Assembly (NCBI RefSeq): GCF_000003605.2
Contig: NW_003153382.1
Location: 1 to 32,681 of the forward strand
Origin: Saccoglossus kowalevskii
Taxonomy: Eukaryota > Hemichordata > Enteropneusta > Harrimaniidae
Length of the DNA: 32,681 nucleotides
Reading direction: 5' to 3'
Each line of letters begins with the position of its first letter. The stretch's first letter is position 1. Below are positions 2,116-28,210 of the stretch, one piece after another. Made by a program: the position numbers and the translations under genes. The notes beneath the pieces were generated by a model. It ran no database searches and had not been told where the DNA came from. It saw only the letters and a program-made list of their open reading frames with translations.

Positions 2116-2580
2116 ACACTGCGGTAATCAATACAGTTGACTTCTATTACACTACCATCAACAATACAGATGACTTCTACGATTACACTGCCATCAGCAA
2201 TACAGTAGACTTCTATGATTACACTACCAACAGCAATACAGTAGACTTCTATGATTACATTGCCATCATCAATACAGTTGACTTCTATGATTACACTACC
2301 ATCAGTAATACAGTAGACTTATATGAATACACTACCAACAGCAATACAGTAGACTTCTATGATTACACTACCAACAGCAATACAGTAGACTTCTATGATT
2401 ACACTACCATCATCAATACAGTTGACTTCTATGATTACACTACCATCAACAATACAGATGACTTCTATGATTACACTGCCATCAGCAATACAGTAGACTT
2501 CTATGATTACACTACCAACAGCAATACAGTAGACTTCTATGATTACAATGCCATCATCAATACAGTTGACTTCTATGATT
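2116..2580. repeat. 288-bp higher-order repeat, two tandem copies
   Basis: The diagnostic aatacagatgac variant occurs at 2169 and 2457 (position of the G of acag), exactly 288 bp apart. Unit order is: atcaac/gatgac, gccatcagc, accaacagc, att- or aatgccatcatc with gttgac, accatcagt with ttatatgaatac, accaacagc, accaacagc, accatcatc with gttgac, then back to atcaac/gatgac. The first copy opens with a 33-bp unit at 2141-2150 (cttctattac, lacking GAT). After the second copy the order changes at about 2580. Confidence 0.85.
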
Positions 2581-2960
2581 ACACTACCAACAGCAATACA
2601 GTATACTTCTATGATTACACTACCAACAGCAATACAGTAGACTTCTATGATTACACTACCAACAGGAATACAGTAGACTTCTATGATTACACTGTCATCA
2701 GCAATACAGTAGACTTCTATGATTACACTACCAACAGCAATACAGTAGACTTCTATGATTACACTACCAACAGCAATACAGTAGACTTCTACGATTACAC
2801 TACCAACAGCAATACAGTAGACGTCTATGATTACACCACCAACAGCAATACAGTAGACTTCTATGATTACATTGCTATCATCAATACAGTTGACTTCTAT
2901 GATTACACTGCCATCAACAATACAGTAGACTTCTATGATTACACTACCAACAGCAATACA
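2580..2960. repeat. Block with private variants aacaggaat and gtcatcagc (copy 1)
   Basis: This block contains in order: a cagtatac unit, aacaggaat at 2661, actgtcatcagc about one unit later, two plain units, a ttctacgattac unit, a cagtagacgtctatg unit, an accaccaac unit, and attgctatcatc. The same rare variants in the same order are found from about 9395 to 9740, and the first part recurs in decayed form at 26,280-26,420. These are long-range copies of one ancestral block. Confidence 0.85.
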
Positions 2961-3119
2961 GTAGACTTCTATGATTACACTGCCATCAGCTATACAGTAG
3001 ACTTCTATGATTATACTACCAACAGCAATACAGTAGACTTCTATGATTACACTACCAACAGCAATACAGTAGACTTCTATGATTACACTACCAACAGCAA
3101 TACAGTAGACTTCTATGAT

Positions 3120-3180
3120 TACACTGCCATCAGCAATACAGTATTCTTCTAAGATTACACTACTATCAGCAATACAGTAG
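3120..3180. repeat. Stop-bearing unit variant (tattcttctaag)
   Basis: A unit reading cagtattcttctaag followed by attacactactatcagc places TAA at 3150-3152 in the otherwise open forward frame. The same tattcttctaag form occurs at 32,511-32,522. Related cagtatacttctaag units lie at about 3719, 13,109, 14,117 and 17,862. All six are followed by a unit with the otherwise rare actatcagc, so the variant has been copied with its neighbour. Confidence 0.85.
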
Positions 3181-3939
3181 ACTTCTATGATTACACTGCC
3201 ATCATCAATACAGTAGACTTCTATGATTACATTGCCATCATCAATACAGTTGACTTCTATGATTACACTGCCATCAGCAATACAGTAGACTTCTATGATT
3301 ACACTACCAACAGCAATACAGTAGACTTCTATGATTACATTGCCATCATCAATACAGTTGACTTCTATGATTACACTACCATCAGTAATACAGTAGACTT
3401 ATATGAATACACTACCAACAGCAATACAGTAGACTTCTATGATTACACTACCAACAGCAATACAGTAGACTTCTATGATTACACTGCCATCAGCAATACA
3501 ATAGACTTCTATGATTACACTACCAACAGCAATACAGTAGACTTCTATGATTACACTGCCATCAGCAATACAGTAGACTTCTATGATTACACTACCAACA
3601 GCAATACAGTAGACTTCTATGATTACACTACCAACAGCAATACAGTAGACTTCTATGATTACACTACCAACAGCAATACCGTAGACTTCAATCATTACAC
3701 TGCCATCAGCAATACAGTATACTTCTAAGATTACACTACTATCAGCAATACAGTAGACTTCTATGATTACACTGCCATCAGCAATACAGTAGACTTCTAT
3801 GATTGCACTACCATCAGCAATACAGTGGACTTCTGAGATTACACCACCATCAGCAATACAGTGGACTTCTATGATTACACTGCCATCAGCAATACAGTAG
3901 ACTTCTATGATTACACTACCAACAGCAATACAGTAGACT

Positions 3940-4200
3940 TCTATGATGTACACTGCCATCAGCGATACAGTGGACTTCTATTATGTACACTACCATCAGC
4001 AGTACAGTGGACGTTCTATGATTACACTGCATCAGCAATACAGTAGATTTGATATGATTACATTACCAACAGCAATACAGTAGACTTTTATGATACATGC
4101 CATCATCAATACAGTTGATTTATATGAATACAATGCCATCATCAATACAGTTGAATTTTATGATTACACTGCCATCAATAATACAGTAGATTCTATGATT
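3940..4200. repeat. Scrambled, indel-rich segment of the array
   Basis: The 36-bp register is lost several times: ctatgatgtacactgcc near 3942, ctattatgtacactacc near 3977, gtggacgttctatg near 4007, actgcatcagc near 4026, tagatttgatatgatt near 4045, and tatgatacatgccatc near 4089. Recognisable acag motifs remain throughout, so this is decayed satellite and not an insertion. No conserved reading frame or foreign sequence is visible. Confidence 0.8.
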
Positions 4201-4478
4201 ACACTGCCATCAGCAATACAGTAGACTTCTATGATTACACTACCAACAGCAATACAGTAGATTTCTATGATTACACTACCAACAACAATACAGTAGACTT
4301 CTATGATTACACTGCCATCAGCAATACAGTAGACTTCTATGATTACACTACCAACAGCAATACAGTAGACTTCTATGATTACACTACCAACAGCAATACA
4401 GTAGACTTCTATGATTACACTACCAACAGCAATACAGTAGACTTCTATGATTACACTACCAACAGCAATACAGTAGAC

Positions 4479-5747
4479 TTGTATGATTACACTACCAACA
4501 GCAATACAGTAGACTTGTATGATTACACTACCAACAGCAATACAGTAGACTTCTATGATTACATTGCTATCATCAATACAGTTGACTTCTATGATTACAC
4601 TGCCATCAACAATACAGTAGACTTCTATGATTACACTACCAACAGCAATACAGTAGACTTCTATGATTACATTGCCATCATCAATACAGTAGACTTCTAT
4701 GATTACACCACCAACAGCAATACAGTAGACTTCTATGATTACAATGCCATCATCAATACAGTAGACTTCTATGATTACACTACCATCAGTAATACAGTAG
4801 ACTTATATGAATACACTACCAACAGCAATACAGTAGACTTCTATGATTACACTACCAACAGCAATACAGTAGACTTCTATGATTACACTACCAACAGCAA
4901 TACAGTAGACTTCTATGATTACACTACCAACAGCAATACAGTAGACTTCTATGATTACACTACCAACAGCAATACAGTAGACTTCTATGATTACACTGCC
5001 ATCAGCAATACAGTATACTTCTATGATTACACTACCAACAGCAATACAGTAGACTTCTATGATTACACTACCAACAGCAATACAGTAAACTTCTACAATT
5101 ACACTACCAACAGCAATACAGTAGACGTCTATGATTACACCACCAACAGCAATACAGTAGACTTCTATGATTACATTGCTATCATCAATACAGTTGACTT
5201 CTATGATTACACTACCAACAGCAATACAGTAGACTTCTATGATTACACTACCAACAGCAATACAGTAGACTTCTGTGATTACACTACCAACAACAATACA
5301 GTAGACTTCTATGATTACACTGCCATCAGCAATACAGTAGACTTGTATGATTACACTACCAACAGCAATACAGTAGACTTCTATGATTACACTACCAACA
5401 GCAATACAGTAGACTTCTATGATTACACTACCATCATCAATACAGTTGACTTCTATGATTACACTACCATCAACAATACAGATGACTTCTATGATTACAC
5501 TGCCATCAGCAATACAGTAGACTTCTATGATTACACTACCAACAGCAATACAGTAAACTTCTATGATTACAATGCCATCATCAATACAGTTGACTTCTAT
5601 GATTACACTACCATCAGTAATACAGTAGACTTATATGAATACACTACCATCAGCAATACAGTAGACTTCTATGATTACACCACCATCAGCAATACAGTAG
5701 TCTTCTATGATTACACTACCAACAGCAAATACAGTAGACTTCTATGA
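4479..5747 (+). other. Open frame of 12-residue repeats, doubtful as a gene
   Basis: There are 422 codons of the repeat VDFYDYTTNSNT and variants. The only initiator is a TTG created by the ttgtatgat variant at 4479; there is no ATG in this frame and no leader or non-repeat domain. It ends because an extra A (gcaaatacag near 5726) shifts the frame. The frame is open because the 36-bp unit has no stop in this phase. No known family is recognised. If translated it would be Asp-, Tyr-, Thr- and Asn-rich, with no signal peptide or membrane segment visible. Confidence 0.15.
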
Positions 5748-5809
5748 TTACACTGCCATCAGCAATACAGTAGACTTCTATGATTACATACCAACAGCAA
5801 TACAGTAGA

Positions 5810-7375
5810 CTTCTATGATTACACTGCCATCAGCAATACAGTAGACTTCTATGATTACACTACCATCAGCAATACAGTAGACTTCTATGATTACACTACC
5901 AACAGCAATACAGTAGACTTCTATGATTACACTGCCATCAGCAATACAGTAGACTTCTATGATTACACTACCAACAGCAATACAGTAGACTTCTATGATT
6001 ACACTACCAACAGCAATACAGTAGACTTCTATGATTACACTACCAACAGCAATACAGTAGACTTCTGTGATTACACTACCAACAACAATACAGTAGACTT
6101 CTATGATTACACTGCCATCAGCAATACAGTAGACTTCTATGATTACACTACCAACAGCAATACAGTAGACTTCTATGATTACACTACCAACAGCAATACA
6201 GTAGACTTCTATGATTACACTACCAACAGCAATACAGTAGACTTCTATGATTACACTACCAACAGCAATACAGTAGACTTCTATGATTACACTACCAACA
6301 GCAATACAGTAGACTTCTATGATTACACTACCAACAGCAATACAGTAGACTTCTATGATTACATTGCTATCATCAATACAGTTGACTTCTATGATTACAC
6401 TGCCATCAACAATACAGTAGACTTCTATGATTACACTACCAACAGCAATACAGTAGACTTCTATGATTACATTGCCATCATCAATACAGTAGACTTCTAT
6501 GATTACACCACCAACAGCAATACAGTAGACTTCTATGATTACACTACCAACAGCAATACAGTAGACTTCTATGATTACACTACCAACAGCAATACAGTAG
6601 ACTTCTATGATTACACCACCATCAGCAATACAGTAGACTTCTATGATTACACTGCCATCAGCAATACAGTATACTTCTATGATTACACTGCCATCAGCAA
6701 TACAGTATACTTCTATGATTACACTACCATCAGCAATACAGTAGACTTCTATGATTACACTACCAACAGCAATACAGTAGACTTCTATGATTACACCACC
6801 ATCAGCAATACAGTAGAATTCTATGATTACATTGCCATCATCAATACAGTTGACTTCTATGATTACACTACCAACAGCAATACAGTAGACTTCTATGATT
6901 ACACTACCAACAGCAATACAGTAGACTTCTATGATTACACTGCCATCAGCAATACAGTAGACTTCTATGATTACACTACCAACAGCAATACAGTAGACTT
7001 CTATGATTACACTACCAACAGCAATACAGTAGACTTCTATGATTACACCACCAACAGCAATACAGTAGACTTCTATGATTACACTACCATCATCAATACA
7101 GTTGACTTCTATGATTACACTACCATCAGTAATACAGTAAACTTATATGAATACACTACCAACAGCAATACAGTAGACTTATATGATTACACTACCAACA
7201 GCAATGCAGTAGACTTCTATGATTACACTGCCATCAGCAATACAGTAGACTTCTATGATTACACTGCCAACAGCAATACAGTAGACTTCTATGATTACAC
7301 TGCCATCAGCAATACAGTAGACTTCTATGATTACACTGCCATCAGCAATACAGTTGACTTCTATGATTACACTAC
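5810..7375. repeat. About 1.5-kb duplicated block, copy A
   Basis: The unit order matches 14,525-16,045 almost unit for unit. In order: gccatcagc, accatcagc, the tgtgattac/accaacaac marker (6065), six plain units, attgctatcatc, gccatcaac, attgccatcatc, accaccatcagc, cagtatac units, the GAATTC-bearing unit (6816-6821), accatcatc, the cagtaaacttatatgaatac unit, the aatgcagtag unit (7204), and gccaacagc. Copy A has one extra cagtatac unit near 6670-6705, so the offset to copy B falls from 8709 to 8673, exactly 36 bp. A partial third copy is at about 31,010-31,500. Confidence 0.9.
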
Positions 7376-8049
7376 CATCAACAATACAGATGACTTCTAT
7401 GATTACACTTCCATCAGCAATACAGTAGACTTCTATGATTACACTACCAACAGCAATACAGTAGACTTCTATGATTACAATGCCATCATCAATACAGTTG
7501 ACTTCTATGATTACACTACCATCAGTAATACAGTAGACTTATATGAATACACTACCAACAGCAATACAGTAGACTTCTATGATTACATTGCCATCAGCAA
7601 TACAGTAGACTTCTATGATTACACTACCAACAGCAATACAGTAGACTTCTATGATTACACTGCCATCAGCAATACAGTAGACTTCTATGATTACACTACC
7701 ATCAGCAATACAGTAGACTTCTATGATTACACTACCAACAGCAATACAGTAGACTTCTATGATTACACTGCCATCAGCAATACAGTAGACTTCTATGATT
7801 ACACTGCCATCAGCAATACAGTTGACTTCTATGATTACACTACCAACAGCAATACAGTAGACTTCTATGATTACACTACCAACAGCAATACAGTAGACTT
7901 CTATGATTACAATACCAACAGCAATACAGTAGACTTCTATGATTACACTGCCATCAGCAATACAGTAGACTTCTATGATTACACTACCATCAGCAAAACA
8001 GTAGACTTCTATGATTACACCACCATCAGCAATACAGTAGACTTCTATG

Positions 8050-8270
8050 ATTACACTGCCATCAGCAATACAGTATACTTCTATGATTACACTACCATCA
8101 GCAATACAGTATACTTCTTTGATTACACTACCATCAGCAATACAGTATACTTCTATGACTACACTACGATAATCAATACAGTTGACTTCTATTACACTAC
8201 CATCAACAATACAGATGACTTCTACGATTACACTGCCATCAGCAATACAGTAGAATTCTATGATTACACT
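8050..8270. repeat. Block with a 33-bp unit (in-frame GAT loss), copy 2 of 4
   Basis: The sequence runs through cagtatacttctatg, cagtatacttctttg, cagtatacttctatg, actacgataatc with gttgac, then cttctattac (8186-8195), where GAT is missing, followed by atcaac/gatgac and ttctacgattac. The same succession is seen at about 2040-2200, 10,320-10,540 and 26,800-27,020. The deletion is 3 bp, and the 825-bp gap between the gatgac markers at 7389 and 8214 (23 units minus 3) confirms it. Confidence 0.88.
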
Positions 8271-8985
8271 ACCAACAATAATACAGTAGACTTCTATGAT
8301 TACATTGCCATCATCAATACAGTTGACTTCTATGATTACACTACCATCAGTAATACAGTAGACTTATATGAATACACTACCAACAGCAATACAGTAGACT
8401 TCTATGATTACACTACCAACAGCAATACAGTAGACTTCTATGATTACACTACCATCATCAATACAGTTGACTTCTATGATTACACTACCATCAACAATAC
8501 AGATGACTTCTATAATTACACTGCCATCAGCAATACAGTAGACTTCTATGATTACACTACCAACAGCAATACAGTAGACTTCTATGATTACAATGCCATC
8601 ATCAATACAGTTGACTTCTATGATTACACTACCATCAGTAATACAGTAGACTTATATGAATACACTACCAACAGCAATACAGTAGACTTCTATGATTACA
8701 CTACCAACAGCAATACAGTAGACTTCTATGATTACAATACCATCATCAATACAGTTGACTTCTATGATTACACTACCATCAACAATACAGATGACTTCTA
8801 TGATTACACTTCCATCAGCAATACAGTAGACTTCTATGATTACACTACCAACAGCAATACAGTAGACTTCTATGATTACAATGCCATCATCAATACAGTT
8901 GACTTCTATGATTACACTACCATCAGTAATACAGTAGACTTATATGAATACACTACCAACAGCAATACAGTAGACTTCTATGATT
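8160..8985. repeat. 288-bp higher-order repeat, three tandem copies
   Basis: gatgac markers lie at 8214, 8502 and 8790, two consecutive intervals of exactly 288 bp. Each copy carries the gttgac unit, the ttatatgaatac unit and the two plain units in the expected places. Copies differ in minor ways: att versus aat before gccatcatc, accaacaat in the first copy, and gcc versus tcc after the gatgac unit. Confidence 0.92.
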
Positions 8986-9394
8986 ACACTGCCATCAGCA
9001 ATACAGTAGACTTCTATGATTACACTACCAACAGCAATACAGTAGACTTCTATGATTACACTGCCATCAGCAATACAGTAGACTTCTATGATTACACTAC
9101 CATCATCAATACAGTAGACTTCTATGATTACACTACCAACAGCAATACAGTAGACTTCTATGATTACACTGCCATCAGCAATACAGTAGACTTCTATGAT
9201 TACACTACCAACAGCAATACAGATGACTTCTATGATTACACTTCCATCAGCAATACAGTAGACTTCTATGATTACACTGCCATCAGCAATACAGTAGACT
9301 TCTATGATTACACTACCAACAGCAATACAGTAGACTTCTATGATTACAATGCCATCATCAATACAGTTGACTTCTATGATTACACTACCAACAG

Positions 9395-9740
9395 CAATAC
9401 AGTATACTTCTATGATTACACTACCAACAGCAATACAGTAGACTTCTATGATTACACTACCAACAGGAATACAGTAGACTTCTATGATTACACTGTCATC
9501 AGCAATACAGTAGACTTCTATGATTACACTACCAACAGCAATACAGTAGACTTCTATGATTACACTACCAACAGCAATACAGTAGACTTCTACGATTACA
9601 CTACCAACAGCAATACAGTAGACGTCTATGATTACACCACCAACAGCAATACAGTAGACTTCTATGATTACATTGCTATCATCAATACAGTTGACTTCTA
9701 TGATTACACTGCCATCAACAATACAGTCGACTTCTATGAT
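9395..9740. repeat. Block with private variants aacaggaat and gtcatcagc (copy 2)
   Basis: aacaggaat at 9462 and actgtcatcagc in the next unit are followed by ttctacgattac, cagtagacgtctatg, accaccaac and attgctatcatc, in the same order as at 2580-2960. The two are about 6.8 kb apart. Confidence 0.88.
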
Positions 9741-9759
9741 TACACTACCAACAGCAATA

Positions 9760-9850
9760 CAGTAGACTTTCTATGATTACACTGCCATCAGCAATACAGT
9801 AGACTTTCTATGATTACACTACCAACAGCAATACAGTAGACTTTCTATGA
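9760..9850. repeat. Three consecutive 37-bp units
   Basis: gactttctatg, with one extra T, occurs at 9768-9770, 9805-9807 and 9842-9844, each 37 bp apart. Three +1 insertions add up to 3 bp, so the forward open frame is regained after the third. The most economical origin is one slipped unit that was then copied twice locally; a repeated sequencing or polishing error is an alternative. Confidence 0.88.
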
Positions 9851-9914
9851 TTACACTACCAACAGCAATACAGTAGACTTCTATGATTACACTACCAACA
9901 GCAATACAGTAGAC

Positions 9915-12900
9915 TTGTATGATTACACTACCAACAGCAATACAGTAGACTTGTATGATTACACTACCAACAGCAATACAGTAGACTTCTATGATTACAC
10001 TACCAACAGCAATACAGTAGACTTCTATGATTACATTGCTATCATCAATACAGTTGACTTCTATGATTACACTGCCATCAACAATACAGTAGACTTCTAT
10101 GATTACACTACCAACAGCAATACAGTAGACTTCTATGATTACATTGCCATCATCAATACAGTAGACTTCTATGATTACACCACCAACAGCAATACAGTAG
10201 ACTTCTATGATTACACTACCAACAGCAATACAGTAGACTTCTATGATTACACTACCAACAGCAATACAGTAGACTTCTATGATTATACCACCATCAGCAA
10301 TACAGTAGACTTCTATGATTACACTGCCATCAGCAATACAGTATACTTCTATGATTACACTACCATCAGCAATATAGTATACTTCTTTGATTACACTACC
10401 ATCAGCAATACAGTATACTTCTATGATTACACTACGGTAATCAATACAGTTGACTTCTATTACACTACCATCAACAATACAGATGACTTCTACGATTACA
10501 CTGCCATCAGCAATTCAGTAGAATTCTATGATTACACTACCAACAACAATACAGTAGACTTCTATGATTACATTGCCATCATCAATACAGTTGACTTCTA
10601 TGATTACACTACCATCAGTAATACAGTAGACTTATATGAATACACTACCAACAGCAATACAGTAGACTTCTATGATTACACTACCAACAGCAATACAGTA
10701 GACTTCTATGATTACACTACCAACAGCAATACAGTAGACTTCTGTGATTACACTACCAACAACAATACAGTAGACTTCTATGATTACACTGCCATCAGCA
10801 ATACAGTAGACTTCTATGATTACACTACCAACAGCAATACAGTAGACTTCTATGATTACACTACCAACAGCCATACAGTAGACTTCTATGATTACACTAC
10901 CAACAGCAATACAGTAGACTTCTATGATTACACTACCAACAGCAATACAGTAGACTTCTATGATTACACTACCAACAGCAATACAGTAGACTTCTATGAT
11001 TACACTACCAACAGCAATACAGTAGACTTCTATGATTACACTGCCATCAGCAATACAGTAGACTTCTATGATTACACTGCCATCAGCAATACAGTAGACT
11101 TCTATGATTACACTGCCATCAGCAATACAGTAGACTTCTATGATTACACTGCCATCATCAATACAGTAGACTTCTATGATTACACTACCAACAGCAATAC
11201 AGTAGACTTCTATGATTACACTACCAACAGCAATACAGTAGACTTCTATGATTACACTGCCATCAGCAATACAGTAGACTTCTATGATTACACTACCAAC
11301 AGCAATACAGTAGACTTCTATGATTACACTGCCATCAGCAATACAGTAGACTTCTATGATTACACTACCAACAGCAATACAGTAGACTTCTATGATTACA
11401 CCACCAACAGCAATACAGTAGACTTCTATGATTACATTGCTATCATCAATACAGTTGACTTCTATGATTACACTGCCATCAACAATACAGTAGACTTCTA
11501 TGATTACACTACCAACAGCAATACAGTAGACTTCTATGATTACACTACCAACAGCAATACAGTAGACTTATATGAATACACTACCAACAGCAATACAGTA
11601 GACTTCTATGATTACACTGCCATCAGTAATACAGTAGACTTCTATGATTACACTACCAACAGCTATACAGTAGACTTCTATGATTACACTGCCATCAGCA
11701 ATACAGTAGACTTCTATGATTACACTACCATCAGCAATACAGTAGACTTCTATGATTACACTACCAACAGCAATACAGTAGACTTCTATGATTACACTAC
11801 CAACAGCAATACAGTAGACTTCTATGATTACACTACCAACAGCAATACAGTAGACTTCTGTGATTACACTACCAACAACAATACAGTAGACTTCTATGAT
11901 TACACTGCCATCAGCAATACAGTAGACTTCTATGATTACACTACCATCAGTAATACAGTAGACTTATATGAATACACTACCAACAGCAATACAGTAGACT
12001 TCTATGATTACACTACCAACAGCAATACAGTAGACTTCTATGATTACACTACCATCATCAATACAGTTGACTTCTATGATTACACTACCATCAACAATAC
12101 AGATGACTTCTATGATTACACTGCCATCAGCAATACAGTAGACTTCTATGATTACACTACCAACAGCAATACAGTAGACTTCTATGATTACAATGCCATC
12201 ATCAATACAGTTGACTTCTATGATTACACTACCATCAGTAATACAGTAGACTTATATGAATACACTACCAACAGCAATACACTAGACTTCTATGATTACA
12301 CTACCAACAGCAATACAGTAGACTTCTATGATTACACTACCATCATCAATACAGTAGACTTCTATGATTACACTACCAACAGCTATACAGTAGACTTCTA
12401 TGATTACACTACCAACAGCAATACAGTAGACTTCTATGATTACACTACCAACAGCAATACAGTAGACTTCTATGATTACACCACCAACAGCAATACAGTA
12501 GACTTCTATGATTACATTGCTATCATCAATACAGTTGACTTCTATGATTACACTGCCATCAACAATACAGTAGACTTCTATGATTACACTACCAACAGCA
12601 ATACAGTAGACTTCTATGATTACACTACCATCATCAATACAGTAGACTTCTATGATTACACTACCATCAACAATACAGATGACTTCTATGATTACACTGC
12701 CATCAGCAATACAGTAGACTTCCATGATTACACTACCAACAGCAATACAGTAGACTTCTATGATTACAATGCCATCATCAATACAGTTGACTTCTATGAT
12801 TACACTACCATCAGTAATACAGTAGACTTATATGAATACACTACCAACAGCAATACAGTAGACTTCTATGATTACACTGCCATCAACAATACAGTAGACT

Positions 12901-13121
12901 TCTATGATTACACTACCAACAGCAATACAGTAGACTTCTATGATTACACTGCCATCAGCAATACAGTAGACTTCTATGATTATACTACCAACAGCAATAC
13001 AGTAGACTTCTATGATTACACTACCAACAGCAATACAGTAGACTTCTATGATTACACTACCAACAGCAATACAGTAGACTTCTATGATTACACTGCCATC
13101 AGCAATACAGTATACTTCTAA
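9915..13121 (+). other. Long open frame of 12-residue repeats, doubtful as a gene
   Basis: There are 1,068 codons of VDFYDYTTNSNT and variants, including one 33-bp unit with an in-frame loss near 10,454. The only start is a TTG from the ttgtatgat variant. The frame ends in a TAA that belongs to the recurrent cagtatacttctaag unit type, found at five other places. Most recurrent variants change amino acids (N to I, T to A, S to I or N, Y to C, D to E). No non-repeat domain, signal peptide or recognised family is present. Confidence 0.15.
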
Positions 13122-13290: not shown

Positions 13291-13344
13291 TATACTTCTA
13301 TGATTACACTACCATCAGCAATACAGTATACTTCTTTGATTACA

Positions 13345-13878
13345 CTACCATCAGCAATACAGTTGACTTCTATGATTACACTACCATCAACAATACAGAT
13401 GACTGCTATGAGTACACTGCCATCAGCAATACAGTAGACTTCTATGATTACACTACCAACAGCAATACAGTAGACTTCTATGATTACAATGCCATCATCA
13501 ATACAGTTGACTTCTATGATTACACTACCATCAGTAATACAGTAGACTTATATGAATACACTACCAACAGCAATACAGTAGACTTCTATGATTACACTAC
13601 CAACAGCAATACAGTAGACTTCTATGATTACACTACCATCATCAATACAGTAGACTTCTATGATTACACTACCATCAACAATACAGATGACTTCTATGAT
13701 TACACTGCCATCAGCAATACAGTAGACTTCTATGATTACACTACCAACAGCAATACAGTAGACTTCTATGATTACAATGCCATCATCAATACAGTTGACT
13801 TCTATGATTACACTACCATCAGTAATACAGTAGACTTATATGAATACACTACCAACAGCAATACAGTAGACTTCTATG
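13345..13878. repeat. 288-bp higher-order repeat, two tandem copies
   Basis: gatgac markers lie at 13,398 and 13,686, 288 bp apart. The first carries gatgactgctatgag, a private form also seen at 18,871, 25,241 and 25,529. Intervening units follow the standard order. Confidence 0.88.
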
Positions 13879-14298
13879 ATTACACTGCCATCAACAATAC
13901 AGTAGACTTCTATGATTACACTACCAACAGCAATACAGTAGACTTCTATGATTACACTGCCATCAGCAATACAGTAGACTTCTATGATTATACTACCAAC
14001 AGCAATACAGTAGACTTCTATGATTACACTACCAACAGCAATACAGTAGACTTCTATGATTACACTACCAACAGCAATACAGTAGACTTCTATGATTACA
14101 CTGCCATCAGCAATACAGTATACTTCTAAGATTACACTACTATCAGCAATACAGTAGACTTCTATGATTACACTGCCATCAGCAATACAGTAGACTTCTA
14201 TGATTACACTACCATCAGCAATACAGTAGACTTCTATGATTACACCACCATCAGCAATACAGTAGACTTCTATGATTACACTGCCATCAATAATACAG
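13598..14298. repeat. Tandemly duplicated block, 1008-bp offset, second copy
   Basis: This is the second copy of the block at 12,590-13,290. It carries the gatgac marker at 13,686 and the TAA at 14,127-14,129. Similarity stops at about 14,285, where a gccatcaataatacag unit replaces the gccatcagc/cagtatac unit of the first copy. Confidence 0.88.
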
Positions 14299-14524: not shown

Positions 14525-16045
14525 TGATTATACTGCCATCAGCAATACAGTAGACTTCTATGATTACACTACCATCAGCAATACAGTAGACTTCTATGAT
14601 TACACTACCAACAGCAATACAGTAGACTTCTATGATTACACTGCCATCAGCAATACAGTAGACTTCTATGATTACACTACCAACAGCAATACAGTAGACT
14701 TCTATGATTACACTACCAACAGCAATACAGTAGACTTCTATGATTACACTACCAACAGCAATACAGTAGACTTCTGTGATTACACTACCAACAACAATAC
14801 AGTAGACTTCTATGATTACACTGCCATCAGCAATACAGTAGACTTCTATGATTACACTACCAACAGCAATACAGTAGACTTCTATGATTACACTACCAAC
14901 AGCAATACAGTAGACTTCTATGATTACACTACCAACAGCAATACAGTAGACTTCTATGATTACACTACCAACAGCAATACAGTAGACTTCTATGATTACA
15001 CTACCAACAGCAATACAGTAGACTTCTATGATTACACTACCAACAGCAATACAGTAGACTTCTATGATTACATTGCTATCATCAATACAGTTGACTTCTA
15101 TGATTACACTGCCATCAACAATACAGTAGACTTCTATGATTACACTACCAACAGCAATACAGTAGACTTCTATGATTACATTGCCATCATCAATACAGTA
15201 GACTTCTATGATTACACCACCAACAGCAATACAGTAGACTTCTATGATTACACTACCAACAGCAATACAGTAGACTTCTATGATTACACTACCAACAGCA
15301 ATACAGTAGACTTCTATGATTACACCACCATCAGCAATACAGTAGACTTCTATGATTACACTGCCATCAGCAATACAGTATACTTCTATGATTACACTAC
15401 CATCAGCAATACAGTAGACTTCTATGATTACACTACCAACAGCAATACAGTAGACTTCTATGATTACACCACCATCAGCAATACAGTAGAATTCTATGAT
15501 TACATTGCCATCATCAATACAGTTGACTTCTATGATTACACTACCAACAGCAATACAGTAGACTTCTATGATTACACTACGAACAGCAATACAGTAGACT
15601 TCTATGATTACACTGCCATCAGCAATACAGTAGACTTCTATGATTACACTACCAACAGCAATACAGTAGACTTCTATGATTACACTACCAACAGCAATAC
15701 AGTAGACTTCTATGATTACACCACCAACAGCAATACAGTAGACTTCTATGATTACACTACCATCATCAATACAGTTGACTTCTATGATTACACTACCATC
15801 AGTAATACAGTAAACTTATATGAATACACTACCAACAGCAATACAGTAGACTTATATGATTACACTACCAACAGCAATGCAGTAGACTTCTATGATTACA
15901 CTGCCATCAGCAATACAGTAGACTTCTATGATTACACTGCCAACAGCAATACAGTAGACTTCTATGATTACACTGCCATCAGCAATACAGTAGACTTCTA
16001 TGATTACACTGCCATCAGCAATACAGTTGACTTCTATGATTACAC
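14525..16045. repeat. About 1.5-kb duplicated block, copy B
   Basis: This is the partner of 5810-7375. It carries the tgtgattac marker (14,774), the six plain units, the GAATTC unit (15,489-15,494), the cagtaaacttatatg unit and the aatgcagtag unit (15,877) in the same order. It lacks one cagtatac unit present in copy A and has a private acgaac change near 15,580. Just past its end, near 16,072, an extra A gives cttctaatgattac and breaks the open frame. Confidence 0.9.
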
Positions 16046-17874: not shown

Positions 17875-18089
17875 GATTACACTACTATCAGCAATACAGT
17901 AGACTTCTATGATTACACTGCCATCAGCAATACAGTAGACTTCTATGATTACACTACCATCAGCAATACAGTAGACTTCTATGATTACACCACCATCAGC
18001 AATACAGTAGACTTCTATGATTACACTACCAACAGCAATACAGTAGACTTGTATGATTACACTACCAACAGCAATACAGTAGACTTCTA

Positions 18090-18636
18090 TGATTACACTA
18101 CCATCATCAATACAGTTGACTTCTATGATTACACTACCATCAACAATACAGATGACTTCTATGATTACACTGCCATCAGCAATACAGTAGACTTCTATGA
18201 TTACACTACCAACAGCAATACAGTAGACTTCTATGATTACAATGCCATCATCAATACAGTTGACTTATATGATTACACTACCATCAGTAATACAGTAGAC
18301 TTATATGAATACACTACCAACAGCAATACAGTAGACTTCTATGATTACACTACCAACATAAATACAGTAGACTTCTATGATTACACTACCATCATCAATA
18401 CAGTTGACTTCTATGATTACACTACCATCAACAATACAGATGACTTCTATGATTACACTTCCATCAGCAATACAGTTGACTTCTATGATTACACTACCAA
18501 CAGCAATACAGTAGACTTCTATGATTACAATGCCATCATCAATACAGTTGACTTCTATGATTACACTACCATCAGTAATACAGTAGACTTATATGAATAC
18601 ACTACCAACAGCAATACAGTAGACTTCTACGATTAC
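18090..18636. repeat. 288-bp higher-order repeat, two tandem copies
   Basis: gatgac markers lie at 18,151 and 18,439, 288 bp apart, with the standard unit order. The accaacataaat change near 18,353 is shared with a unit near 22,675. Confidence 0.88.
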
Positions 18637-18799
18637 ACTGCCATCAGCAATACAGTAGACTTCTATGATTACACTACCAACAACAATACAGTAGACTTCT
18701 ATGATTACATTGCCATCATCAATACATTTGACTTCTATGATTACACTACCATCAGTAATACAGTAGACTTATATGAATACACTACCAACAGCAATACAG

Positions 18800-19354: not shown

Positions 19355-21984
19355 ACACTGCCATCAGCAATACAGTAGACTTCTATGATTACACTACCAA
19401 CAGCAATACAGTAGACTTCTATGATTACACTGCCATCAGCAATACAGTAGACTTCTATGATTACACTACCAACAGCAATACAGTAGACTTCTATGATTAC
19501 ACTACCAACAGCAATACAGTAGACTTCTACGATTACACTACCAACAGCAATACAGTAGACGTCTATGATTACACCACCAACAGCAATACAGTAGACTTCT
19601 ATGATTACATTGCTATCATCAATACAGTTGACTTCTATGATTACACTGCCATCAACAATACAGTAGACTTCTATGATTACACTACCAACAGCAATACAGT
19701 AGACTTCTATGATTACATTGCCATCATCAATACAGTCGACTTCTATGATTACATTGCCATCATCAATACAGTTGACTTCTATGATTACACTGCCATCAAT
19801 AATACAGTAGACTTCTATGATTACACTGCCATCAACAATACAGTAGACTTCTATGATTACACTACCAACAGCAATACAGTAGACTTCTATGATTACACTG
19901 CCATCAGCAATACAGTAGACTTCTATGATTATACTACCAACAGCAATACAGTAGACTTCTATGATTACACTACCAACAGCAATACAGTAGACTTCTATGA
20001 TTACACTACCAACAGCAATACAGTAGACTTCTATGATTATACTGCCATCAGCAATACAGTAGACTTCTATGATTACACTACCATCAGCAATACAGTAGAC
20101 TTCTATGATTACACTACCAACAGCAATACAGTAGACTTCTATGATTACACTGCCATCAGTAATACAGTAGACTTCTATGATTACACTACCAACAGCAATA
20201 CAGTAGACTTCTATGATTACACTACCAACAGCAATACAGTAGACTTCTATGATTACACTACCAACAGCAATACAGTAGACTTCTGTGATTACACTACCAA
20301 CAACAATACAGTAGACTTCTATGATTACACTGCCATCAGCAATACAGTAGACTTCTATGATTACACTACCAACAGCAATACAGTAGACTTCTATGATTAC
20401 ACTACCAACAGCAATACAGTAGACTTCTATGATTACACTACCATCAGTAATACAGTAGACTTATATGAATACACTACCAACAGCAATACAGTAGACTTCT
20501 ATGATTACACTACCAACAGCAATACAGTAGACTTCTATGATTACACTACCATCATCAATACAGTTGACTTCTATGATTACACTACCATCAACAATACAGA
20601 TGACTTCTATGATTACACTGCCATCAGCAATACAGTAGACTTCTATGATTACACTACCAACAGCAATACAGTAGACTTCTATGATTACATTGCCATCATC
20701 AATACAGTCGACTTCTATGATTACATTGCCATCATCAATACAGTTGACTTCTATGATTACACTGCCATCAATAATACAGTATACTTCTATGATTACACTG
20801 CCATCAGCAATACAGTAGACTTCTATGATTACACTACCAACAGCAATACAGTAGACTTCTATGATTACACTGCCATCAGCAATACAGTAGACTTCTATGA
20901 TTATACTGCCATCAGCAATACAGTAGACTTCTATGATTACACTACCAACAGCAATACAGTAGACTTCTATGATTACACTACCAACAGCAATACAGTAGAC
21001 TTCTATGATTACACTGCCATCAGCAATACAGTATACTTCTATGATTACACTACCGATCAGCAATACAGTAGACTTCTATGATTACACTGCCATCAGCAAT
21101 ACAGTATACTTCTATGATTACACTACCATCAGCAATACAGTATACTTCTATGATTACACTACCATCAGCAATACAGTTGACTTCTATGATTACACTACCA
21201 TCAACAATACAGATGACTTCTATGATTACACTTCCATCAGCAATACAGTAGACTTCTATGATTACACTACCAACAGCAATACAGTAGACTTCTATGATTA
21301 CAATGCCATCATCAATACAGTTGACTTCTATGATTACACTACCATCAGTAATACAGTAGACTTATATGAATACACTACCAACAGCAATACAGTAGACTTC
21401 TATGATTACACTGCCATCATCAATACAGTAGACTTCTATGATTACACTACCAACAGCAATACAGTAGACTTCTATGATTACACTGCCATCAGCAATACAG
21501 TAGACTTCTATGATTACACTACCAACAGCAATACAGTAGACTTCTATGATTACACTACCAACAGCAATACAGTAGACTTCTATGATTACACTACCAACAG
21601 CAATACAGTAGACTTCTATGATTACACTACAAACAGCAATACAGTAGACTTCTATGATTACACTACCAACAGCAATACAGTAGACTTCTATGATTACACT
21701 ACCAACAGCAATACAGTAGACTTCTGTGATTACACTACCAACAACAATACAGTAGACTTCTATGATTACACTGCCATCAGCAATACAGTAGACTTCTATG
21801 ATTACACTACCAACAGCAATACAGTAGACTTCTATGATTACACTACCAACAGCAATACAGTAGACTTCGATGATTACACTACCAACAGCAATACAGTAGA
21901 CTTCTATGATTACACTACCAACAGCAATACAGTAGACTTCTATGATTACACCACCATCAGCAATACAGTAGAATTCTATGATTA

Positions 21985-22518
21985 CATTGCCATCATCAAT
22001 ACAGTTGACTTCTATGATTACACTACCATCAACAATACAGATGACTTCTATGATTACACTGCCATCAGCAATACAGTAGACTTCTATGATTACACTACCA
22101 ACAGCAATACAGTAGACTTCTATCATTACAATGCGATCATCAATACAGTTGACTTCTATGATTACACTACCATCAGTAATACAGTAGACTTATATGAATA
22201 CACTACCAACAGCAATACAGTAGACTTCTATGATTACACTACCAACAGCAATACAGTAGACTTCTATGATTACACTACCATCATCAATACAGTTGACTTC
22301 TATGATTACACTACCATCAACAATACAGATGATTTCTATGATTACACTTCCATCAGCAATACAGTAGACTTCTATGATTACACTACCAACAGCAATACAG
22401 TAGACTTCTATGATTACAATGCCATCATCAATACAGTTGACTTCTATGATTACACTACCATCAGTAATACAGTAGACTTATATGAATACACTACCAACAG
22501 CAATACAGTAGACTTCTA
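21985..22518. repeat. 288-bp higher-order repeat, two tandem copies
   Basis: gatgac markers lie at 22,040 and 22,328, 288 bp apart. The first follows a GAATTC-bearing unit (21,971-21,976). A third marker follows at 22,760, 432 bp on. Confidence 0.88.
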
Positions 22519-22744
22519 TGATTACACTGCCATCAGCAATACAGTAGACTTCTATGATTACACTACCAACAGCAATACAGTAGACTTCTATGATTACACT
22601 GCCATCAGCAATACAGTAGACTTCTATGATTACACTACCATCAGCAATACAGTAGACTTCTATGATTACACTACCAACATAAATACAGTAGACTTCTATG
22701 ATTACACTACCATAATCAATACAGTTGACTTCTATGATTACACT

Positions 22745-23165
22745 ACCATCAACAATACAGATGACTTCTATGATTACACTTCCATCAGCAATACAGTAGA
22801 CTTCTATGATTACACTACCAACAGCAATACAGTAGACTTCTATGATTACAATGCCATCATCAATACAGTTGACTTCTATGATTACACTACCATCAGTAAT
22901 ACAGTAGACTTATATGAATACACTACCAACAGCAATACAGTAGACTTCTATGATTACATTGCCATCAGCAATACAGTAGACTTCTATGATTACACTACCA
23001 ACAGCAATACAGTAGACTTCTATGATTACACTGCCATCAGCAATACAGTAGACTTCTATGATTACACTACCATCAGCAATACAGTAGACTTCTATGATTA
23101 CACTACCAACAGCAATACAGTAGACTTCTATGATTACACTGCCATCAGCAATACAGTAGACTTCT
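22745..23165. repeat. Block shared with 7375-7795
   Basis: After the gatgac marker (22,760, compare 7389) both stretches read tccatcagc, plain, aatgccatcatc, accatcagt/ttatatgaatac, plain, the rare attgccatcagc, plain, gccatcagc, accatcagc, plain, gccatcagc. They are 15,371 bp apart and diverge after about 11 units. Confidence 0.82.
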
Positions 23166-25179
23166 ATGATTACACTACCAACAGCAATACAGTAGACTTC
23201 TATGATTACACTACCAACAGCAATACAGTAGACTTCTATGATTACACTACCAACAGCAATACAGTAGACTTCTGTGATTACACTACCAACAACAATACAG
23301 TAGACTTCTATGATTACACTGCCATCAGCAATACAGTAGACTTCTATGATTACACTACCAACAGCAATACAGTAGACTTCTATGATTACACTACCAACAG
23401 CCATACAGTAGACTTCTATGATTACACTACCAACAGCAATACAGTAGACTTCTATGATTACACCACCAACAGCAATACAGTAGACTTCTATGATTACACT
23501 ACCATCATCAATACAGTTGACTTCCATGATTACACTACCATCAGTAATACAGTAAACTTATATGAATACACTACCAACAGCAATACAGTAGACTTATATG
23601 ATTACACTACCAACAGCAATGCAGTAAACTTCAATGATTACACTGCCATCAGCAATACAGTAGACTTCTATGATTACACTGCCAACAGCAATACAGTAGA
23701 CTTCTATGATTACAATGCCATCATCAATACAGTTGACTTTTATGATTACACTACCATCAGTAATACAGTAGACTTATATGAATACACTACCAACAGCAAT
23801 ACAGTAGACTTCTATGATTACACTACCAACAGCAATACAGTAGACTTCTATGATTACAATACCATCATCAATACAGTTGATTTCTATGATTACACTACCA
23901 TCAACAATACAGATGACTTCTATGATTACACTTCCATCAGCAATACAGTAGACTTCCATGATTACACTACCAACAGCAATACAGTAGACTTCTATGATTA
24001 CAATGCCATCATCAATACAGTTGACTTCTATGATTACACTACCATCAGTAATACAGTAGACTTATATGAATACACTACCAACAGCAATACAGTAGACTTC
24101 TATGATTACACTGCCATCAGCAATACAGTAGACGTCTATGATTACACCACCAACAGCAATACAGTAGACTTCTCTGATTACATTGCTATCATCAATACAG
24201 TTGACTTCTATGATTACACTGCCATCAACAATACAGTAGACTTCTATGATTACACTACCAACAGCAATACAGTAGACTTCTATGATTACATTGCCATCAT
24301 CAATACAGTCGACTTCTATGATTACATTGCCATCATCAATACAGTTGACTTCTATGATTACACTGCCATCAATAATACAGTAGACTTCTATGATTACACT
24401 GCCATCAGCAATACAGTAGACTTCTATGATTACACTACCAACAGCAATACAGTAGACTTCTGTGATTACACTACCAACAACAATACAGTAGACTTCTATG
24501 ATTACACTGCCATCAGCAATACAGTAGACTTCTATGATTACACTACCAACAGCAATACAGTAGACTTCTATGATTACACTACCAACAGCAATACAGTAGA
24601 CTTCTATGATTACACTACCAACAGCAATACAGTAGACTTCTATGATTACACTACCAACAGCAATACAGTAGACTTGTATGATTACACTACCAACAGCAAT
24701 ACAGTAGACTTGTATGATTACACTACCAACAGCAATACAGTAGACTTCTATGATTACACTACCAACAGCAATACAGTAGACTTCTATGATTACACTACCA
24801 ACAGCAATACAGTAGACTTCTATGATTACACTGCCATCAGCAATACAGTATACTTCTATGATTACACTAAAAACAGCAATACAGTAGACTTCTATGATTA
24901 CACTACCAACAGCAATACAGTAGACTTCTACGATTACACTACCAACAGCAATACAGTAGACTTCTATGATTACACTACCAACAGCAATACAATAGACTTC
25001 TATGATTACACTACCAACAGCAATACAGTAGACTTCTATGATTACACTGCCATCAGCAATACAGTATACTTCTATGATTACACTACCAACAGCAATACAG
25101 TAGACTTCTATGATTACACTACCAACAGCATACAGTAACTTCTACATTTACACTACCAACAGCATACAGTAGACTTCTA

Positions 25180-26010
25180 TGATTACACTACCATCATCAA
25201 TACAGTTGACTTCTATGATTACACTACCATCAACAATACAGATGACTGCTATGAGTACACTGCCATCAGCAATACAGTAGACTTCTATGATTACACTACC
25301 AACAGCAATACAGTAGACTTCTATGATTACAATGCCATCATCAATACAGTTGACTTCTATGATTACACTACCATCAGTAATACAGTAGACTTATATGAAT
25401 ACACTACCAACAGCAATACAGTAGACTTCTATGATTACACTACCAACAGCAATACAGTAGACTTCTATGATTACACTACCATCATCAATACAGTTGACTT
25501 CTATGATTACACTACCATCAACAATACAGATGACTGCTATGAGTACACTGCCATCAGCAATACAGTAGACTTCTATGATTACACTACCAACAGCAATTCA
25601 GTAGACTTCTATGATTACAATGCCATCATCAATACAGTTGACTTCTATGATTACACTACCATCAGTAATACAGTAGACTTATATGAATACACTACCAACA
25701 GCAATACAGTAGACTTCTATGATTACACTACCAACAGCAATACAGTAGACTTCTATGATTACACTACCATCATCAATACAGTAGACTTCTATGATTACAC
25801 TACCATCAACAATACAGATGACTTCTATGATTACACTGCCATCAGCAATACAGTAGACTTCTATGATTACACTACCAACAGCAATACAGTAGACTTCTAT
25901 GATTACAATGCCATCATCAATACAGTTGACTTCTATGATTACACTACCATCAGTAATACAGTAGACTTATATGAATACACTACCAACAGCAATACAGTAG
26001 ACTTCTATGA
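25180..26010. repeat. 288-bp higher-order repeat, three tandem copies
   Basis: gatgac markers lie at 25,241, 25,529 and 25,817, two intervals of 288 bp. The first two share gatgactgctatgag, so they are the most closely related pair. The next marker (26,141) is 324 bp on, because one extra unit (gccaacagc, near 26,015) is present. Confidence 0.92.
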
Positions 26011-26289
26011 TTACACTGCCAACAGCAATACAGTAGACTTCTATGATTACACTACCAACAGCAATACAGTAGACTTCTATGATTACACTACCATCATCAA
26101 TACAGTTGAATTCTATGATTACACTACCATCAACAATACAGATGACTTCTATGATTACACTGCCATCAGCAATACAGTAGACTTCTATGATTACACTACC
26201 AACAGCAATACAGTAGACTTCTATGATTACAATGCCATCATCAATACAGTTGACTTCTATGATTACACTACCAACAGCAATACAGTATA

Positions 26290-26530
26290 CTTCTATGATT
26301 ACACTACCCAACAGCAATACAGTAGACTTCTATGATTACACTACCAACAGGAATACGGGAGACTTCTATGATTACACTGTCATCAGCAAGACGGGAGACT
26401 TCTATGATTACACTGCCATCAGCATACAGTAGACTTCTATGATTACGCTAACAACAGCAATACAGTAGACTTCTACGAGTACACTGCCATCAGCAATTCA
26501 GTAGACTTTTTATGATTACACTGCCGTCAG
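26290..26530. repeat. Decayed segment carrying the aacaggaat/gtcatcagc block (copy 3)
   Basis: This segment holds the same pair of private variants as 2661 and 9462 (aacaggaat at 26,346, then actgtcatcagc), but with further changes: acgggagac twice, gcaagacgg, an extra C in ctacccaacagc near 26,309, a lost base in agcatacag near 26,421, and extra Ts in gactttttatg near 26,505. It is an older or faster-decaying copy of that block. Confidence 0.82.
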
Positions 26531-26799
26531 CAATACAGTTGACTTCTATGATTACACTACCAACAGCAATACAGTAGACTTCTATGATTACACTACCAAC
26601 AGCAATACAGTAGACTTCTATGATTACACTACCAACAGCAATACAGTAGACTTCTATGATTACACCACCAACAGCAATACAGTAGACTTCTATGATTACA
26701 CTACCAACAGCAATACAGTAGACTTCTATGATTACACTACCAACAGCAATACAGTGGACATCTATGATTACACCACCATCAGCAATACAGTAGACTTCT

Positions 26800-27020
26800 A
26801 TGATTACACTGCCATCAGCAATACAGTATACTTCTATGATTACACTACCATCAGCAATACAGTATACTTCTTTGATTACACTACCATCAGCAATACAGTA
26901 TACTTCTATGATTACACTACGATAATCAATACAGTTGACTTCTATTACACTACCATCAACAATACAGATGACTTCTACGATTACACTGCCATCAGCAATA
27001 CAGTAGACTTCTATGATTAC
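26800..27020. repeat. Block with a 33-bp unit, copy 4 of 4
   Basis: This block repeats the succession of cagtatac units, the ttctttgatt unit, actacgataatc and cttctattac (26,939-26,948), then gatgac (26,967) and ttctacgattac. It matches 8050-8270 best: both have cgataatc, whereas 2116 and 10,430 have cggtaatc. Confidence 0.87.
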
Positions 27021-27365
27021 ACTACCAACAACAATACAGTAGACTTCTATGATTACATTTCCATCATCAATAGAGTTGACTTCTATGATTACACTACCAT
27101 CAGTAATACAGTAGACTTATATGAATACACTACCAACAGCAATACAGTAGACTTCTATGATTACACTACCAACAGCAATACAGTAGACTTCTATGATTAC
27201 ACTACCATCATCAATACAGTTGACTTCTATGATTACACTACCATCAACAATACAGATGACTTCTATGATTACACTGCCATCAGCAATACAGTAGACTTCT
27301 ATGATTACACTACCAACAGCAATACAGTAGACTTCTATGATTACAATGCCATCAACAATACAGAT
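26930..27365. repeat. 288-bp higher-order repeat, two tandem copies plus a truncated third
   Basis: gatgac markers lie at 26,967 and 27,255 (288 bp apart). A third marker only 108 bp (3 units) later at 27,363 shows an internal deletion or unequal exchange. The decayed island begins immediately downstream. Confidence 0.83.
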
Positions 27366-27378
27366 GACTTCTATGATT

Positions 27379-27600
27379 ACACTGCCATCAATAATACTGT
27401 AGACTTATATGATTATCCTATTGACAGCAATACCCCTTACTTCTATGATTACACTACCGACAACGATACCGTAGATTTCCATGATTACCCTACGCTCATC
27501 CAGACTGGAGACTGCTATGAGTAGCCTACCTTCCTCCTTACGCATGAGTTCGATGATTACCCTGCCATCTGGAGTACTCTAAACTTCTACGATTACACTG
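27379..27600. repeat. Heavily substituted island with intact 36-bp spacing
   Basis: About six units are strongly diverged: tatgattatcctattgac, aataccccttac, accgacaacgatacc, ccctacgctcatccagac, gagtagcctaccttcctcc, cttacgcatgagttcg, and ccatctggagtactc. The positions matching the acag G still fall at 27,399, 27,435, 27,471, 27,507, 27,543, 27,579 and 27,615, so there is no net indel. A TAG at 27,522-27,524 interrupts the open frame. No foreign element is seen. Confidence 0.85.
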
Positions 27601-28210
27601 CCATCAGCAATACAGTAGACTTCTATGATTACACTACCAACAACAATACAGTAGACTTCTATGATTACATTGCCATCATCAATACAGTTGACTTCTATGA
27701 TTACACTACCATCAGTAATACAGTAGACTTATATGAATACACTACCAACAGCAATACAGTAGACTTCTATGATTACACTACCAACAGCAATACAGTAGAC
27801 TTCTATGATTACACTACCATCATCAATACAGTTGACTTCTATGATTACACTACCATCAACAATACAGATGACTTCTATGATTACACTGCCATCAGCAATA
27901 CAGTAGACTTCTATGATTACACTACCAACAGCAATACAGTAGACTTCTATGATTACAATGCCATCATCAATACAGTTGACTTCTATGATTACCCTACCAT
28001 CAGTAATACAGTAGACTTATATGTATACACTACCAACAGCAATACAGTAGACTTCTATGATTACACTGCCGTCAGCAATACAGTTGACTTCTATGATTAC
28101 ACTACCATCATCAATACAGTTGACTTCTATGATTACACTACCATCAACAATACAGATGACTTCTATGATTACACTTCCATCAGCAATACAGTAGACTTCT
28201 ATGATTACAC
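27590..28210. repeat. 288-bp higher-order repeat, two copies beginning in the decayed island
   Basis: gatgac markers lie at 27,867 and 28,155, 288 bp apart. The preceding copy would have its marker at 27,579, which falls on a decayed unit (gagtactctaaac), while the seven units after it follow the standard order. The island and the higher-order repeat are therefore in register. Confidence 0.82.

Follow-up and report, generated by a model that had tools for sequence, protein, structure and literature searches.

A large 36-bp tandem array of Saccoglossus kowalevskii in which an 8-unit word recurs in scattered patches

INTRODUCTION

Irregular higher-order patches in large variable-number tandem repeat (VNTR) arrays have already been published. 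The VNTR of human Xp22.33, as described in PMC2588610, is an 18-kb array of a 61-bp repeat with an irregular higher-order structure. Like the array analyzed here, it combines a short unit and an extent above 10 kb with complex irregular higher-order repeats that are revealed only by long contiguous sequence; unlike it, the present array belongs to another organism, has a 36-bp unit, and contains blocks mostly of 6 to 23 units (∼0.2 to 0.8 kb) rather than of 1.6 and 2.5 kb. Minisatellites with variant-repeat maps, of the kind treated in PMC2897807, also have several short unit types whose order can be represented as a symbol string. The minisatellite arrays covered in the review PMC8122249 extend over 0.5 to 30 kb with units of about 15 bp, whereas the present array lies just beyond 30 kb.

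Human alpha-satellite, in the accounts of PMC2588610 and PMC8122249, has 171-bp units in centromeric arrays that can extend to several million bp. Its higher-order repeats resemble the word described below in being multimers of diverged units in a set order; they differ in that the copies found here are scattered and without harmonics, and the units are ∼91% alike. The Meloidogyne satellites, as presented in PMC3694981, likewise have monomers in both simple and higher-order arrangements. Their junction motifs are conserved and their monomers partly unrelated, whereas the array reported here is built from one monomer family.

RESULTS

The window, i.e., the whole stretch of 32,681 nucleotides that was analyzed, is a complete contig and consists end to end of a single 36-bp tandem array of 908 units (positions 1 to 32681, + strand), as deduced from TRF, wrap-around alignment, and the contig boundaries. 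TRF reported a 36-bp period over bases 4 to 32680 with 908.1 copies and 91% matches, which bore out the 36-bp array of the original prediction. By wrap-around alignment, 881 of the 908 parsed units were exactly 36 bp long, and 171 interspersed unit types were counted among the insertion-free units. The interspersed variants, together with the short unit and the length of tens of kilobases, correspond to a minisatellite (VNTR). Unit-to-unit similarity was ∼91% regardless of position. The left-end stretch of units 1 to 40 (positions 1 to 1456, + strand) was divergent, with 57% single-occurrence units compared to 2 to 12% per 40-unit bin in units 121 to 720, despite which units 1 to 5 were ordinary; a further divergent stretch comprised units 721 to 800. 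Very divergent patches of units were also seen at positions 309 to 595 and 27,402 to 27,581, as were clusters of one-base indels.

The higher-order organization had been proposed from the spacing of GATGAC markers. The window contains 35 of these rather than the claimed 36, and they mark the junction behind one unit subtype, being placed after unit type E in 25 cases, after type 0 in 4, and after rarer types in 6. Adjacent markers were exactly 288 bp apart in 10 intervals (11 had been claimed), while random placement of 35 markers gave a mean of 1.0 and a maximum of 5 in 5000 trials. The claimed interval 22,040-22,328 is absent, as the marker following 22,040 lies at 22,760, and the 432-bp spacing occurs between neighbors twice rather than three times; the 576- and 1152-bp spacings are present, one each among neighbors. 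Among the 34 intervals, 15 were divisible by 8 units and 21 by 4 units, compared to random means of 3.7 and 8.0, respectively. The ten marker-bounded 288-bp segments had much of their subtype order in common, with a mean identity of 97.8% and a minimum of 96.2%, compared to 91.4% for aligned random 8-unit blocks, a difference to be read in the light of the selection of the ten segments by their markers and of units that differ little anyway.

The autocorrelation that had been suggested as a test gave the expected peak at 288 bp. Lag 8 was the strongest of lags 1 to 250, with 17.0% identical units compared to 10.9% after shuffling (z = 7.9), and the highest value at any lag over 100 shuffles was 15.2%. 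The peaks predicted at multiples were not found: lags 16 and 24 were at chance (z = 0.5 and 0.9), and the unit order is therefore not continued as a tandem higher-order array. Lag 40 reached z = 3.4, and lags 132, 145, and 152 were above z = 4.5. The nucleotide identity of units at lag 8 was 92.3%, roughly 1 percentage point over the 91.3% of the background. For units 58 to 908 the identical-unit rate was 0.112 at distances of 1 to 4 and 0.119 at distances of 200 to 399, and among the bins tested lag 8 alone stood out (0.178). When the word copies were excluded, lag 8 (0.160) no longer stood clear of lags 48 (0.158) and 20 (0.155).

The repeated element was written as the word CDAGEBAF, in which the letters rank unit types by frequency. 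It was matched in at least 5 of its 8 units at 20 places, compared to 0.09 in shuffles. Exact copies on the + strand are found in units 64 to 71 (positions 2280 to 2567), 332 to 339 (11925 to 12212), and 770 to 777 (27690 to 27977), and most copies bear unit variants of their own. The word stands in tandem, with about two to three copies at a time, in four stretches that together hold 81 of the 908 units and are on the same strand, namely units 231 to 251 (8289 to 9044, ∼2.6 copies), 370 to 387 (13293 to 13940, ∼2.3 copies), 502 to 518 (18046 to 18657, ∼2.1 copies), and 698 to 722 (25103 to 25999, ∼3.1 copies, the longest). Most of the lag-8 peak is very probably due to these four tandem placements. 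The other 12 of the 20 matches lie outside them, and cyclic matches to the word leave 595 of the 908 units uncovered. When the 288-bp copy at 8325-8612 was folded as single-stranded DNA, 191 of 200 shuffles folded at least as well, and on this ground a mechanism driven by hairpins was abandoned.

The word is part of a wider mosaic of duplicated blocks. At a score of at least 16, 104 such blocks were obtained, compared to 0 in 25 shuffles; they had a median length of 10 units, were offset by 8 to 712 units, and together took in 589 of the 908 units. The copies are in register and on the same strand, are of many lengths, and in many cases are not identical. One block of 23 units without a GATGAC marker (positions 5844 to 6671, + strand) is matched unit for unit by units 405 to 427 (14553 to 15380, + strand) at an offset of 242 units (∼8.7 kb).

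Within units 58 to 690 the word was found to keep a 4-unit register, with z = 16.1 and 14.3 in two analyses. There, 11 of its 13 matches start at a unit number divisible by 4, and the unit types of the word hold the register strongly. Simulated exchange in windows of the same size reached z = 14.3 in 0, 0, 0, 3, and 3 of 25 runs at five settings, which runs counter to our main reading. A 4- or 8-unit register in units outside word copies was rejected (z = 0.6 modulo 4 and −0.5 modulo 8), and the common single-position variants showed neither register. Exchange stepped in 4 units (144 bp), with the word stemming from an older 4-unit multimer or with breaks at nucleosome spacing, is considered an unlikely explanation. 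A length of 144 bp is close to that of the nucleosome core.

In the 572-Mb assembly of 4830 contigs, a search for the unit pattern with up to 3 mismatches, which would overlook copies that are more divergent or unassembled, gave 879 matches, all on the same strand: 874 on this contig and 5 on a 10-kb contig (C900). Within the reach of this search the unit is thus found on two contigs only, and as assembled the array appears to sit at one locus. C900 opens inside the array for 226 bp and then carries a TPR-domain gene. The left flank was not found, as window positions 300 to 620 matched only C900:9-212, at 81% (two candidates, one scored). For a 28-base piece of the unit, exact matching gave 0 hits in bacterial or archaeal genome contigs and 0 in viral contigs, sets from which entries of the window's own genome may be excluded; a search of plasmids and phages with 2,001 of the 32,681 window bases gave no match, and no Rfam family reached its gathering score in the window or L009. 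In the literature searched, neither four 13- to 15-letter pieces of the unit nor a 36-bp satellite with a higher-order repeat was found.

The height of the lag peak was compared to simulations of random exchange without any higher-order rule, in which a peak reaching z = 7.4 was scored. At six settings this was reached in 25, 16, 25, 20, 24, and 25 of 25 runs, and at nine earlier settings in 49 of 54 runs, one of these settings (mean exchange length, 30; mutation, 0.1) giving 1 of 6. This toy model is unfitted, and its base identity or its count of unit types mostly departed from the observed values (0.108 and 182). Where exchanges were short, averaging 4 or 10 units, the simulated neighbors became more alike, unlike those of the observed array.

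DISCUSSION

The data are very probably explained by a large minisatellite (VNTR-type) array that evolves by unit mutation and by in-register duplication and deletion of blocks, with no regular higher-order array. In this process the 36-bp units would mutate while multi-unit blocks would be duplicated or deleted in register, presumably by unequal sister-chromatid exchange or gene conversion, with unequal exchange suggested as the mechanism. The 8-unit word would be one such block copied to many places, in four of them in tandem. The exchange events may have been longer than ∼30 units, because near neighbors resemble each other no more than units far apart do, whereas short local slippage would make neighbors the more alike. 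The evolution of the array would most likely be neutral.

The proposed 8-unit higher-order repeat is thus real as a multimer that recurs in largely fixed order, but it was overstated in that the copies form scattered patches; likewise, the fixed order of subtypes between markers largely holds within the multimer but does not run on as a tandem higher-order array. The likening to alpha-satellite found no support, given the four short tandem stretches, the missing 16- and 24-unit harmonics, the identity excess of about 1 point, the many other duplicated blocks, the equally high peaks that random exchange gave in most simulated runs, and the presence of the unit on two contigs only in the search made, one of them with a TPR-domain gene; head-to-tail repetition of the multimer over long distances was not found. 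The contig could still be a small decayed piece of a larger, perhaps centromeric, satellite of truly alpha-satellite-like organization that was missed by the assembly, a reading judged quite improbable. It would account for the largely fixed order of the word, for its 20 matches, and for the 97.8% identity of the ten marker-bounded segments. The array is moreover broken in the assembly, since this contig is array throughout and C900 begins inside it, and short units are compatible with a centromere, three centromeric satellites with 44- to 50-bp monomers being described for Vicia faba in PMC5895790. Against this reading stand the lack of peaks at lags 16 and 24, the 595 units outside cyclic word matches, the duplication of many other blocks, the ∼91% similarity of units wherever they are placed, and the TPR-domain gene on the contig that starts with the array's end. 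An assembly artefact, in which the assembler scrambled the unit order or duplicated blocks such that mosaic and word are absent from the chromosome, is highly improbable. Our data are from one allele in one assembly in which errors are possible, the contig is all array in an assembly of 4830 contigs, and the divergent patches (309-595 and 27,402-27,581) and one-base indel clusters could reflect consensus trouble. Copying by the assembler, however, would leave fully identical copies at a single offset, whereas the blocks recur at many offsets, many of them non-identical, and most word copies have their own unit variants.

The array is probably non-coding. That it is or was a coding repeat of 12 codons per unit, reading DFYDYTTISNTV, within an exon for a repetitive protein of great length is very improbable, even though the 36-bp unit has one open frame per strand. 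Stops in the + frame arise from 5 of 530 differences among 163 unit types, compared to ∼20 expected by uniform change (4/108) and 21 on the − strand, and this deficit runs counter to our main reading. Among the ungapped units, 10 of 891 contain a stop in the + frame, compared to 58 on the − strand. Stop-free stretches of at least 300 amino acids in the + frame total 9725 amino acids, a value attained by none of 200 full shuffles, none of 200 shuffles in 40- or 80-unit blocks, and 10 of 200 in 20-unit blocks. The longest + stretch, at 1665 amino acids, is ordinary: 32 of 200 full shuffles and 48, 21, and 24 of 200 block shuffles gave one at least as long. The open frame is not kept through the array, as 10 units have in-frame stops, four of which (units 104, 365, 393, and 497) are identical copies spread through it, and 22 units have lengths not divisible by three. 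Silent (124/530) and amino acid-changing (401/530) differences are near the uniform expectation (21/108 and 83/108), and the differences are even over codon positions 1, 2, and 3 (168, 181, and 181). The 75-amino-acid stretch translated from the array end on C900 had no match in Pfam. Several close-set indels add up to a multiple of three, which would favor coding; this sign was rejected on inspection, as the other two + consensus frames have a stop in every unit, and locally compensated indels would therefore not rescue the frame.

The contig provides a map in which the order of unit variants can be read over a long distance. In a short-unit array, an autocorrelation peak that is significant may be mistaken for an alpha-satellite-like higher-order array, although random exchange readily equals its height. 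Should other alleles confirm the 144-bp register, nucleosome spacing as the setter of the exchange step would become testable on one locus.

Organization of the array

Throughout its length the window is a single 36-bp tandem array (908.1 copies, 91% matches), and it makes up an entire contig, C4327, of an assembly of 572 Mb in 4830 contigs. The array was parsed by wrap-around alignment into 908 units, of which 881 were exactly 36 bp long, and the 171 unit types counted among units without insertions were lettered by frequency. Two short patches, at 309-595 and 27402-27581, contained strongly diverged units (as many as 13 of 36 positions mismatched) with ordinary units on either side and may be old remnants or local consensus errors. 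The share of unique units was also elevated in units 721-800. Clustered one- and two-base insertions and deletions were observed at 3936-4223 in eight adjoining units (110-117) whose summed length was exactly 8 × 36 bp, and other close-set indels summing to 0 or 3 were found at units 36/39, 159/161, 272-274, 698/699, and 731/734.

The original prediction of an alpha-satellite-like, 288-bp (8-unit) higher-order repeat was based on the spacing of the hexamer GATGAC. This hexamer was found 35 times in the window, preceded by unit type E in 25 cases, type 0 in 4, and rarer types in 6. Ten of the eleven neighboring 288-bp intervals reported for it do exist, but the one at 22,040-22,328 is absent, and only two of the three 432-bp intervals were found. 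Random marker placement produced a mean of 1.0 and a maximum of 5 such 288-bp intervals in 5000 trials. In the proposed autocorrelation of unit order, identical units at lag 8 amounted to 17.0% versus 10.9% when shuffled (z 7.9), and the top value at any lag over 100 shuffles, 15.2%, was below this. Lags 16 (z 0.5) and 24 (z 0.9) were at chance level. Raised values were also seen at lag 40 (z 3.4) and at some long lags (132, 145, and 152; z 4.6-4.8). Since a regular higher-order array would show harmonics, the missing peaks at lags 16 and 24 indicate that this is not such an array, and the alpha-satellite comparison was overstated.

The 8-unit word CDAGEBAF was found at 20 places with 5 or more of its 8 units matching (shuffled mean, 0.09; maximum, 2 in 200), with three exact copies, and read cyclically it covered 313 of the 908 units. 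Tandem stretches of the word occupied units 231-251, 370-387, 502-518, and 698-722 (81 units in total), and 12 of the 20 matches lay outside them. Five further listed lag-8 rows merged by overlap into three stretches rich in the commonest unit types. With the word copies left out, lag 8 (0.160) was not set apart from lag 48 (0.158) or lag 20 (0.155). The mean identity of the ten marker-bounded 288-bp segments was 97.8%, compared to 91.4% for aligned random 8-unit blocks, where 97.8% was reached by 0.5% of pairs.

A wider mosaic was found by scoring identical units by rarity on every diagonal. At a threshold score of at least 16, 104 duplicated blocks were obtained versus none in 25 shuffles, and these covered 589 of 908 units, with a median length of 10 units and offsets ranging between 8 and 712 units. 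Of the exact blocks, the longest (23 units, offset 242 units or ~8.7 kb) was without GATGAC. Offsets were multiples of 4 in 48 of the 104 blocks and of 8 in 25, and among the 35 blocks overlapping the word little, 14 had an offset divisible by 4.

Simulated exchange without a higher-order rule

Arrays were simulated as evolving solely by random tandem block duplication or deletion plus mutation, with settings not fitted to the observed array. With 25 runs for each of six settings, the top peak at lags 1 to 60 reached z 7.4 in 25, 16, 25, 20, 24, and 25 of them. Nine earlier settings gave such a peak in 49 of 54 runs, every miss among these occurring at mean length 30 and mutation 0.1 (1 of 6 reached). 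Neighbors became much more alike than in the observed array when the mean length was 4 or 10 units; at 60 or 100 units the double-lag peak was weak, as was observed. The rate of identical units in the array was flat with distance (0.112 at 1-4 units and 0.119 at 200-399, units 58-908), which suggests long exchanges rather than short slippage.

A 4-unit (144-bp) register of the word copies is considered a lead only. The modulo-4 register of unit types gave z 16.1 and 14.3 (two computations) in units 58-690 (2067-24850), a modulus and a stretch picked after inspection, with word copies that are kin by descent. It gave z 10.0 and 8.3 for the whole array and was weak at the ends (units 1-300, z 2.1; units 601-908, z 1.7). 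Its source was the word's units (z 27.7), the remaining units giving z 0.6, and word matches started at a unit number divisible by 4 in 11 of 13 cases in units 58-690 and in 1 of 7 beyond. Simulated exchange matched the observed z in windows of that size in 0, 0, 0, 3, and 3 of 25 runs (five settings) and the whole-array z in 0, 0, 0, 3, and 8 of 25, with all successes at mean lengths 60 and 100 and none with short events.

Coding potential

The array is unlikely to be coding. The consensus unit has one open frame per strand; the + frame was stopped in 10 of 891 ungapped units, four of these being identical copies at widely separated positions, and lengths not divisible by three were found in 22 units. 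Differences were even by codon position (168, 181, and 181), with a silent share close to the uniform expectation. Counted against the noncoding reading were a deficit of + stop-making differences (5 of 530 versus about 20 expected and 21 for the − strand, among changes common to unit types by descent) and a surplus in the total of stop-free + stretches of at least 300 amino acids. This total was reached by 0 of 200 full shuffles and, for block shuffles, by 0 of 200 (40-unit), 0 of 200 (80-unit), and 10 of 200 (20-unit). The surplus was attributed to indel clustering because the remaining + frames of the consensus have a stop in each unit. The longest stop-free + stretch was ordinary relative to the shuffles.

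Genomic surroundings and known systems

An assembly-wide search allowing up to 3 mismatches, which more divergent copies would escape, gave 879 matches to the unit pattern, all on the + strand, of which 874 fell within the window and the other 5 at the beginning of a second contig, C900. This contig (10,129 bp) opens with 6.3 array units followed by nonarray sequence, and its orientation suggests that it continues the window's right end. The two showed no clear overlap (91-93% over 41-149 bases at best), and the left flank of the window was not found. Pieces of the window and unit gave no match in prokaryote, virus, plasmid, and phage collections.

The first 10,000 bp of C900 carry a TPR-domain gene on the minus strand (2858-9667) in at least four exon pieces, its 3′ end facing the array about 2.6 kb off. 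Four pieces joined by eye matched Pfam TPR_2 (E 8.3e-8; 32.2 bits, cutoff 27); the first and last singly gave no Pfam match and the first gave no PDB match. The gene is likely TTC33, an animal gene, and it is on this resemblance that the genome was taken to be probably animal. A second, unrelated tandem array (8429-8948; 41-bp unit, 12.6 copies, 97% matches) lies inside the span of these exon pieces. An open stretch of 99 amino acids (6629-6928, minus strand), which looks like a LINE-type reverse transcriptase fragment, had no match in Pfam at E values of 1 or less.

No paper containing pieces of the 36-bp unit was found in the literature searched. According to a review (PMC8122249), the Smith model holds that DNA free of constraint turns periodic under unequal crossover. 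Large VNTR arrays are already known from the literature to have irregular higher-order structure in some cases: PMC2588610 describes an 18-kb array at Xp22.33 with a 61-bp unit and irregular 1.6- and 2.5-kb higher-order repeats. The window array most likely belongs with this known kind, the large VNTR arrays of irregular higher-order structure.
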